Assembly: GCA_003220495.1 (NCBI GenBank)
Contig: QHSP01000015.1
Location: 62,001-126,000 of the forward strand
From: Candidatus Rokuibacteriota bacterium
Lineage (GTDB): Bacteria > Methylomirabilota > Methylomirabilia > Rokubacteriales > CSP1-6
Reading direction: 5' to 3'
Length of the DNA: 64,000 bases
Shown here: one piece after another, positions 12,786-14,568 of the stretch
How positions within the stretch are numbered: position 1 is the first letter of the stretch
Layout of the letters: each line of letters starts with the position of its first letter
Translations under genes and position numbers: made by a program
The notes under the pieces: model-generated
What the model was told of the DNA's origin: nothing
Seen by the model: only the letters and a program-made list of their open reading frames with translations
Databases searched by the model: none

Positions 12786-12931
12786 GTCGCCCGACCATTC
12801 CCGTGTCGCGCCCCGCCACGATCATCCTCGATGTTCCTGGTGCCGCTCGTCGAAGAATTTCACTGGTCGCGCCGGCTGACGGCGGGCGCGTGCCTTGACC
12901 TCTCGGGCACGCGATGCTAACTGGATCGAGC

Positions 12932-14065
12932 ATGAGTGACGGCGTCCTCTCGGATCGCGAGCTGCGCCTCGCGGTGCGCGACGGCTGGATCGTCGCACCG
13001 ACCGCGATCGACGATCAGCAGTTCCAGCCGGCCAGCCTCGACCTGCGCCTGGGGCCCGACGCCTATCAGCTCCGCGCGAGCTTCCTGCCGTTTCGGGAGA
13101 GCGTGCAGAGTCGTCTCGGCGAGCGCGGCCTCGCCGAGAGCGACCTCGTCATCGATCAGCTCTCGCTGACCGGCTCCGGCGCCACGCTCCAGCGCGGCTC
13201 CGTGTATCTCGTGCCTCTGCTCGAGTCGCTCGATCTGCCGCCCGACGTGCGCGGGCGCTCGAACCCGAAATCGACGACGGGGCGGCTCGACATCTTCACG
13301 CGCGTGATCACCGACGCGACGCCCCGCTTCGACGAGATCCGCGCGGGCTACCGCGGCGCGCTCTATCTCGAAGTCTCGCCTCAGTCGTTTCCGGTCCGCG
13401 TGCAGACCGGCGCCTCGCTGAATCAGCTGCGGCTGCTCGCTGGGCAAACCTCGATGTCCGACGAGGCGCTCGAGGGTCTGTATCGCGAGCGGCCGCTGCT
13501 CTACGACGACGACGAGCGGCCGATTCCACCGGGGCGTGTCGTGGTCAGCGACGGCCTCTGCATGGGGGTCGACCTCTCGGGTCGGCTGACCGACGGGATC
13601 ATCGGCTATCGCGCCCATCCCAATCCGCCGGCGGTCGATCTGAGCCGGATCGGCTTCTACGATCCCGGGGAGTTCTGGGAGCCCATCAAGCGCCCCTCGC
13701 GCGACTCCTACATCCTGGAGGCCAACCGGTTCTACATCCTCCTCTCCAAGGAGCGTATCCGGGTGCCCCCGGAGTTCGCGGCCGAGATGGTCGTCTACGA
13801 CGCCGGGGCAGGGGAAATTCGCACGCACTACGCGGGCTTCTTCGACCCCGGATTCGGCTGGGGCGACGGGACGATTCTGGGCACCAAGGTGGTCATGGAG
13901 GTGCGGGCGCGCGAGGTGCCGTTCATGGTCTACGACGGCCAGACGTCGTTCAAGGTCCTGTTCGAGCGGCTGCGCTCTCGACCCGAGAGGGTCTATGGCG
14001 TCGGGATCGGCTCGTCCTACCAGCGGCAGACCCTGACCCTCAGCAAGCACTTCAGGCGCCTGTGA
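12932..14065 (+). CDS. dcd: 2'-deoxycytidine 5'-triphosphate deaminase, long form
   Basis: 377 residues, about twice the length of classical Dcd, matching the long two-domain form found in some Gram-negative groups. Each half resembles the dUTPase/Dcd fold; the first contains QQFQPASLDLRLGPDAYQL and RGRSNPKSTTGRLD. The enzyme converts dCTP to dUTP for dTMP synthesis. ATG 12932 fits the conserved start (MSDGVLSDRELRLA); ATG 12914 in the same frame is an alternative. The 146-bp gap before it (12786-12931) shows nothing recognisable. Confidence 0.85.
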   Translation: MSDGVLSDRELRLAVRDGWIVAPTAIDDQQFQPASLDLRLGPDAYQLRASFLPFRESVQSRLGERGLAESDLVIDQLSLTGSGATLQRGSVYLVPLLESLDLPPDVRGRSNPKSTTGRLDIFTRVITDATPRFDEIRAGYRGALYLEVSPQSFPVRVQTGASLNQLRLLAGQTSMSDEALEGLYRERPLLYDDDERPIPPGRVVVSDGLCMGVDLSGRLTDGIIGYRAHPNPPAVDLSRIGFYDPGEFWEPIKRPSRDSYILEANRFYILLSKERIRVPPEFAAEMVVYDAGAGEIRTHYAGFFDPGFGWGDGTILGTKVVMEVRAREVPFMVYDGQTSFKVLFERLRSRPERVYGVGIGSSYQRQTLTLSKHFRRL

Positions 14066-14074
14066 GAGGGGGCG

Positions 14075-14083
14075 TGCTAAAAT
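14075..14083 (+). promoter_or_regulatory. Candidate extended -10 promoter for the Pup-like gene
   Basis: TGC followed by TAAAAT (14078-14083) fits an extended -10 element without a clear -35. Transcription from about 14090 would leave a leader of roughly 54 nt before the ATG at 14144. Confidence 0.35.
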
Positions 14084-14143
14084 GCGTGCAGTAGTGGTTT
14101 CGGGTACTTTGCCGACACGGCCCGTTGCCCCATGGAGGGCGAG

Positions 14144-14344
14144 ATGGCAGAGCAAAAGAAGAAAGAAGTCAGGCCCACGAAGCCCGCGGAAGGTGGAGAC
14201 GGAGCGGCTCCGAGCCCTGAGCTGGCCAAGAAGGGCAAGAAGATCAAGGAAGACATCGACAAGCTCCTCGACGAGATCGACGACATCCTCGAAGAGAACG
14301 CCGAGGAGTTCGTGAAGAGCTACGTGCAGCGGGGCGGCGAGTAG
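14144..14344 (+). CDS. pup: Pup-like (prokaryotic ubiquitin-like) protein ending in Gly-Gly-Glu
   Basis: 66 residues. The C-terminal half is nearly the canonical Pup sequence: LLDEIDDILEENAEEF, then VKSYVQRGGE at the end. The N-terminal half is charged and disordered, rich in Lys and Pro. In actinobacteria Pup is attached through a C-terminal glutamate to substrate lysines by PafA, and most actinobacterial Pups end in Gln that Dop first deamidates. Here the genome-encoded C-terminus is already Glu. GGAGGG at 14135-14140 is well spaced for ATG 14144; ATG 14132 lacks such a site. No pafA, dop, mpa/arc or proteasome gene lies in the window. The FmdB-like gene follows after 2 bp. Confidence 0.9.
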   Translation: MAEQKKKEVRPTKPAEGGDGAAPSPELAKKGKKIKEDIDKLLDEIDDILEENAEEFVKSYVQRGGE

Positions 14345-14346
14345 GA

Positions 14347-14568
14347 ATGCCGATCTACGAGTACCGCTGCAAGGAGTGCGAGGCGGAGTTCGAAAAGTAC
14401 ATCCCCGGCGCGACGACCGCCGTCGCGTGTCCGACCTGCGCCAGCGAGCAGGTGATGCGGAAGCTATCGGTGTTCGGCCTCAAGACCGTCGGCGCGCTGT
14501 CGTCCGACATGTCGTCCGGTATGTCGGGCGGCGGTGGGTGCTGCGGCGGCGGTTGTGCCTGCCACTGA
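14347..14568 (+). CDS. FmdB-family zinc-ribbon protein
   Basis: 73 residues. The N-terminus MPIYEYRCKECEAEFEK is the hallmark of FmdB/regulatory zinc-ribbon proteins, with zinc ligands in CKEC (residues 8-11) and CPTC (28-31). The tail is rich in Gly and Cys (CCGGGCACH), which could bind more metal. FmdB-like proteins are found beside many operons and their role is unsettled. It starts 2 bp after the Pup-like gene, so the two are almost certainly co-transcribed. Confidence 0.88.
   Translation: MPIYEYRCKECEAEFEKYIPGATTAVACPTCASEQVMRKLSVFGLKTVGALSSDMSSGMSGGGGCCGGGCACH

Follow-up and report, generated by a model that had tools for sequence, protein, structure and literature searches.

A pup gene followed by an fmdB-type gene

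The window, by which we mean the whole 64,000-nucleotide stretch of DNA from a soil Rokubacterium that was analyzed, contains a short ORF that lies between a dCTP deaminase gene and a gene for an FmdB-type zinc-ribbon protein. The genes and sequence elements of this locus are the following:

12914..14065, + strand: dCTP deaminase of the PRK07559 type (NCBIfam, 427.5 bits), the upstream neighbor (dcd)
14075..14083, + strand: TGCTAAAAT, a weak, possible extended −10 element between dcd and pup
14132-14344, + strand: alternative form of pup, 70 aa, from the first ATG
14134-14139, + strand: GGAGGG, likely ribosome site of pup, read from the sequence
14144..14344, + strand: pup, 66 aa, ending in Gly-Gly-Glu; supported by PF05639, TIGR03687 and purifying selection
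14347..14568, + strand: fmdB-type zinc-ribbon gene, 73 aa, with four ribbon cysteines and a Cys-rich tail

The ORF at 14144 had been identified as Pup in a first-pass annotation, and curated profiles bear this out: it matches the Pfam Pup model PF05639 with 77.5 bits (cut-off 27) and the NCBIfam model TIGR03687 (pupylate_cterm) with 62.8 bits (cut-off 41.45). Its product also matches seven distinct PDB sequences (best E value 5e-12), the closest structures being solved Pup chains. The C terminus reads ...EEFVKSYVQRGGE, followed by a TAG stop; the last residues are VQRGGE, and the protein thus carries one of the two C-terminal signatures of Pup, Gly-Gly-Glu or Gly-Gly-Gln. The pup gene of the window genome (G000) differs from that of its nearest relative (G006) by 8 synonymous and 0 nonsynonymous changes and from that of G003 by 12 synonymous and 0 nonsynonymous changes. 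Among the matches listed from named genomes, a Pup 100% identical to that of the window was found in Candidatus Rokuibacteriota bacterium AR27 (L135). Judged by its sequence, the ORF is a genuine, ordinary Pup, the ubiquitin counterpart of bacteria, and not a chance ORF. UBact is the name given to Pup-like proteins of Gram-negative phyla; the window protein is likewise Pup-like, has a GGE end and belongs to a Gram-negative phylum, but by the curated Pup models it is simply Pup.

Of the two possible starts, we prefer the ATG at 14144 over that at 14132, because GGAGGG ends 4 nt 5′ of it and because the Pup N terminus in most relatives is MAEQ or a close variant. The fmdB start lies 2 nt past the pup stop. 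A hairpin across this junction, plausible from the window alone, was considered and dropped, since single-sequence folds of 73 such junctions, compared by eye, had no common structure. Between dcd and pup, a consensus promoter scan found nothing; a TGnTAgAAT-like sequence is seen by eye at the place of the possible −10 element in many genomes of family f1 that have the long dCTP deaminase (f1, g1 and similar codes are labels of the genome set searched). The first-pass annotation had also observed that the Gly-Gly-Glu end is encoded, which makes deamidation needless, and that dCTP deaminase and FmdB zinc-ribbon genes, not proteasome genes, are the neighbors of pup. Both observations hold, and we take the dCTP deaminase gene to be context, outside the system.

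Conservation of the pup–fmdB pair across the phylum

A Pup match was present in 83 of the 95 genomes of the phylum, at 96 places, and all 96, including the window, were fetched for neighborhood comparison. At 73 of these 96 places, fmdB starts 0 to 52 nt downstream of pup. Counted by genome, the two genes lie within 52 nt of each other in 73 of the 77 Pup-bearing genomes of families f1 to f5 and f9 (f1, 52/56; f2 to f4, 3/3; f5, 12/12; f9, 6/6), which settles in the affirmative whether the FmdB-like gene is conserved beside pup, a point that the first-pass annotation had raised. Family f5 probably represents the NC10 bacteria (Methylomirabilis type). The four f1 genomes without an intact pair have damaged junctions, with N runs in G013 and G093 and deletions in G029 and G090, and fmdB sequence is visible downstream in all four. 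We do not claim an in-frame Pup–FmdB fusion in any of them, as the junctions consist of these N runs or have fmdB out of frame after the deletions. The other pup places lacking fmdB are accounted for by second Pup copies and by a single gene that is divided between two contigs. The remaining six genomes (four f8, one f10 and one f6) show the canonical dop-pup-prcB order with no fmdB at pup; the genomes of f8 and f10 thus have the canonical operon in 5/5.

The genes that flank the pair vary between families on both sides, while fmdB is constant. The gene upstream of pup encodes a dCTP deaminase, which is either of the PRK07559 type or short, or else a MoaB-like protein; Pfam checks covered one example each of the short deaminase and the MoaB-like protein, and the others, including all in f9, were named by eye. 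The pair is followed by LysR and SelD, by a transporter-like gene or by mpa. Specifically, mpa, either whole or as a contig-cut N-terminal piece, comes after fmdB in five of the six f9 genomes, and in two loci (L241 and L247) dop is also seen after fmdB and mpa; in the f9 genome G053 there was no mpa after fmdB within the stretch examined. In this pup-fmdB-mpa-dop order, fmdB therefore joins proteasome genes. In f6, an indolepyruvate-oxidoreductase-like gene separates the second pup (L095) from the fmdB downstream of it, and in the f5 genome G051 (L098) mpa and dop lie ∼5 kb beyond fmdB. A detached pup with an fmdB neighbor is the norm for the family of the window genome.

The f1 genomes fall into halves by the dCTP deaminase before pup, which is either of the long PRK07559 type, as at 12914-14065 of the window, or short (L061:7402-7953, L056:4585-5136). 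The two types look like an in-place replacement.

Loci outside the phylum and the published neighborhood rule

The outside comparison comprised the best 80 of 493 confirmed named loci among the matches listed. An FmdB profile match near pup occurred in one of these best 80 of 493 loci, L135, which is itself from Rokubacterium; the other Rokubacterium locus among them, L136, has an N gap. At the 78 loci of these best 80 that are from outside the phylum, there was no fmdB match near pup (78/78). Eighteen Nitrospira-type loci of the same best 80 contain pup without pafA, dop, prcBA or fmdB in the stretch examined, some of the contigs being short. The first-pass annotation was thus correct that pup of the window lies outside a proteasome locus, but not in treating this as unusual.

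The available text of PMC2588565 (2008) describes pup as invariably adjacent to a PafA gene. This is not so in the window, where the neighbors are dcd and fmdB and the PafA gene is on another contig, C21. Because their pup genes are detached from pafA, the Rokubacterial and the Nitrospira-type groups are exceptions to the rule as worded in that text. The rule fails here, and annotation based on gene neighborhood would miss the link. Among open-licence PMC papers, as far as their searchable text goes, we found none that connects pup genes with FmdB or with a zinc ribbon. The pup–fmdB pairing is conserved and, within that literature, undescribed.

At three of the Nitrospira-type loci (L147, L144 and L162), pup was seen away from the pafA/dop locus. 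In L147 and L162 it lies between a membrane pyrophosphatase-like and a RecJ-like gene, both named by eye.

The FmdB-type protein and its relation to Ruc

The FmdB-type protein of the window matches PF09723 with 47.1 bits (cut-off 34.4) and TIGR02605 with 51.1 bits (cut-off 31.3); a search for a solved relative by sequence gave none that was convincing (best E value 0.3). In an alignment of 71 pup-paired FmdB rows, from which G001, G030 and G016 were dropped (contig ends or N) and to which the f6 row was added, the four ribbon cysteines are present in 71, 71, 70 and 71 rows, respectively. The tail that follows is short and rich in Gly and Cys, with four cysteines in 48 of 49 f1 rows, one in 11 of 12 f5 rows and two to four in f9.

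By profile, the FmdB/Zn_ribbon_8 family to which we assign the window protein includes Ruc, an N-terminal stretch of which matches PF09723 with 43.2 bits and TIGR02605 with 39.8 bits; both proteins have four ribbon cysteines. Ruc is Rv0991c of Mycobacterium tuberculosis, described in the available text of PMC7448276 as a redox-regulated chaperone that binds one zinc and gains chaperone activity on oxidation. According to the same text, little Ruc is produced at 45 °C when mpa is mutated, its heat induction requiring mpa and the Pup-proteasome system. The pup-paired protein is set apart by its Gly- and Cys-rich tail, although this short tail may still fit the variable, hydrophilic and disordered type expected of a Ruc-like chaperone. 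The gene neighbors also differ; they are chaperone genes for Ruc (PMC7448276) and here are pup and, in f9, mpa and dop. The release of zinc and the suppression of aggregation that oxidation brings about have been demonstrated solely for the M. tuberculosis protein (PMC7448276); the pup-paired protein would be a candidate for both.

The window genome encodes three further FmdB proteins with scores above the cut-off; of these, L272 is by eye more Ruc-like and has no Cys-rich tail. Over the same 11 pairs, pN/pS was 0.14 to 0.53 for fmdB and 0.00 to 0.18 for pup; fmdB thus changes faster.

PafA, Mpa and the proteasome genes lie on other contigs

The window's assembly consists of 159 contigs, with a completeness of 98.42 and a contamination of 1.87. 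A PafA-like ligase, on whose presence in the genome the first-pass annotation had made its reading depend, is encoded at C21:1010-2365 and matches TIGR03686 with 633.5 bits (equivalog cut-off 551.3); the same protein falls under the Dop cut-off (442.2 vs. 492.3). PrcA is complete (331 bits, cut-off 139), and of PrcB there is the end only, its gene being truncated where contig C21 begins. Mpa is in pieces: C126 ends with the C-terminal half, and C66 and C68 each end with an N-terminal piece, the two being different; the best piece, the C-terminal half, scores 450.7 bits, below the full-length cut-off of 504.75. In each of two same-genus relatives (G004 and G007), Mpa is encoded by two full-length genes, and two Mpa genes per genome would explain the Mpa contig breaks in the window genome. 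The proposed genome search for the remaining pathway thus recovered PrcA, the end of PrcB and pieces of Mpa but no Dop in this assembly, and pafA, mpa and prcBA are all on contigs other than that of pup.

The Mpa pieces (L014, L045 and L046, from the ends of C126, C68 and C66) carry two different N-terminal coiled coils. Judged from the two same-genus relatives, the genus of the window has a second, orphan Mpa.

Twenty proteasome loci were fetched, and all 20 show the order Dop-prcB-prcA-pafA, with pafA ∼8 kb away in L270 and some genes in pieces in L259. Mpa was seen upstream in 19 of the 20, L271 ending before it, and there was no pup match in any of the 20. In three loci, NCBIfam identified the ligase-family gene upstream as Dop (627, 629 and 577 bits; cut-off 492.3). 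Compared to the Pup-proteasome system of Actinobacteria, homologs of Pup, PafA, PrcA, PrcB and Mpa are present here and the C-terminal motif GG[E/Q] is common to both, but the Rokubacterial pup lies away from the mpa-dop-prcBA-pafA operon, in a pair with fmdB.

The Gly-Gly-Glu end is a common alternative to Gly-Gly-Gln

Counted from the listing, 51 of the 73 fmdB-paired pup genes encode a final Glu and 22 a final Gln. On a tree of 48 f1 genomes (29 E, 19 Q), at least six changes between GGE and GGQ are required; this tree was made by a quick method from those f1 genomes in which two or more of ThrB, LysR and SelD were present, and it left out other Pup-bearing genomes. Dop scores are alike in the GGE genome G004 and the GGQ genome G014 (NCBIfam). 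The two ends interchange within one family, and Dop is retained whichever of them is present; GGE is therefore a frequent alternative to GGQ and no mark of an unusual system. Indeed, the available text of PMC3511204 already records a Pup with an encoded GGE end in Corynebacterium glutamicum, for which deamidation is needless, as in Rokubacterium, and where Dop is kept for depupylation; the C. glutamicum gene differs in phylum and gene neighborhood. With this precedent, the part of the first-pass annotation that concerned the Glu end was already known: the end is encoded as described, yet it is no oddity. That Dop persists through switches between GGE and GGQ agrees with its being kept for depupylation rather than for deamidation. 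The interest of the locus lies in the pup–fmdB pairing, not in the Glu end.

Interpretation of the pairing

We favor, with a probability of about 0.6, the reading that the window encodes part of a Pup system and that the pairing of pup with fmdB is functional in some way. In its favor are the curated-profile matches, the Dop-prcB-prcA-pafA loci, the conserved pair amid changing flanks, the place of fmdB between pup and mpa in f9, the kept ribbon cysteines and the relation to Ruc; against it stand the canonical f8 and f10 operons, the 78 outside loci (of the best 80 of 493) with no fmdB match near pup, the other FmdB proteins of the genome, the faster change of fmdB, and the Mpa pieces and missing Dop of the window assembly. 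Since Pup would be made already in the Glu form, PafA could ligate it to target lysines at once, and direct ligation without deamidation is likely in this organism. Dop would then act in Pup removal only, and tagged proteins would be degraded by Mpa and the 20S proteasome, whose genes are on other contigs, as homology to the known pathway suggests. In its evolution, pup would have left the mpa-dop-prcB-prcA-pafA operon and entered a two-gene unit with an FmdB-family zinc-ribbon gene. The FmdB-type protein may act together with pupylation in the control of protein quality. Through the cysteines of its ribbon and its Cys-rich tail it would respond to oxidation or to the loss of metal, and, like Ruc, it would keep hold of damaged proteins for refolding or tagging. 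The more specific proposal, that it is a component dedicated to the Pup-proteasome system, a thiol- or zinc-sensing holding chaperone or adaptor produced from one message with Pup and coupling oxidative damage to tagging, is tentative. We give such a partner role, taken on its own, only about one chance in three because the genome encodes other FmdB proteins and because fmdB is the faster-evolving gene of the pair.

At a similar level stands the possibility that pup and fmdB were joined once in an ancestor and have since been kept together by a common promoter or by ribosome coupling, the FmdB-like protein having an unrelated job. The restriction of the pairing to one phylum, judged against the best 80 of 493 outside loci, may reflect such a single event, and in many f1 genomes the gap from the pup stop to the fmdB start is 0 to 5 nt, so that a break would harm expression. 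However, the gap varies from 0 to 52 nt over the set, the flanks on both sides were replaced while fmdB remained, the f9 pair precedes mpa and dop, and the detached second pup of f6 and its fmdB are one gene apart. If the partner role is correct, bacterial protein tagging would have in the FmdB-type protein a component that is undescribed in the literature searched. To our knowledge, target choice in pupylation is poorly understood, one ligase serving many substrates with no generally accepted adaptor. A protein whose gene is constant beside pup, and lies between pup and mpa in f9, is a concrete candidate for a part in that choice.

Two genomes of genus g13, G020 (93% complete; L067) and G092 (100% complete; L229), have an intact pup–fmdB pair and no PafA, Dop, Mpa or PrcA match, and their pup genes differ by 5 synonymous and 0 nonsynonymous changes. 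They could suggest that Pup and the FmdB-like protein also have a job free of ligase and proteasome, at least in some relatives. Both genomes are drafts, however, and the proteasome locus is often a contig break in this group; the simplest explanation of the missing PafA/Dop, Mpa and PrcA matches is a common assembly gap. We consider such a job quite improbable, and it is inapplicable to the window genome, which has PafA.

Very unlikely, too, is a loss of Dop in the window genome, with the Glu end having made deamidation needless and tagging having become one-way. A profile search of the contigs found no Dop in this fragmented assembly, and the single Pup_ligase match there is PafA. Against such a loss, contig C21 starts inside prcB and dop is expected just upstream of that break, all eight same-genus relatives have two to four Pup_ligase matches, fragments included, and the GGE relative G004 retains Dop (627 bits). 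Given the contig break in prcB and the presence of Dop in the loci of relatives, the lack of a Dop match in the window genome most probably reflects a gap in the assembly. That Pup is a ligase-less relic is refuted for the window genome by its PafA.

Additional Pup copies and Pup domains

Extra Pup copies, second or third in their genomes and with no adjoining fmdB, were observed at L059, L084, L085, L088, L248 and L249 (genomes G013, G034, G037, G094 and G077); in G034, the main copy ends in GGQ and the two extra copies end in GGE. A decayed Pup copy without the GGE end lies at L079:5072-5185 (G030), and a possible mini-Pup of 20 residues, ending in NYVQRGGE, at L070:7698-8141 (G022). At L099:3383-3985 (G051, contig C54), a 200-aa protein has a Pup domain as its N-terminal 51 residues (TIGR03687, 53 bits), which ends in GGGQ and continues into an unassigned domain. 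The gene for this fusion adjoins one for an HmaC-like/DUF499 ATPase of the kind that is characteristic of phage-defence loci.
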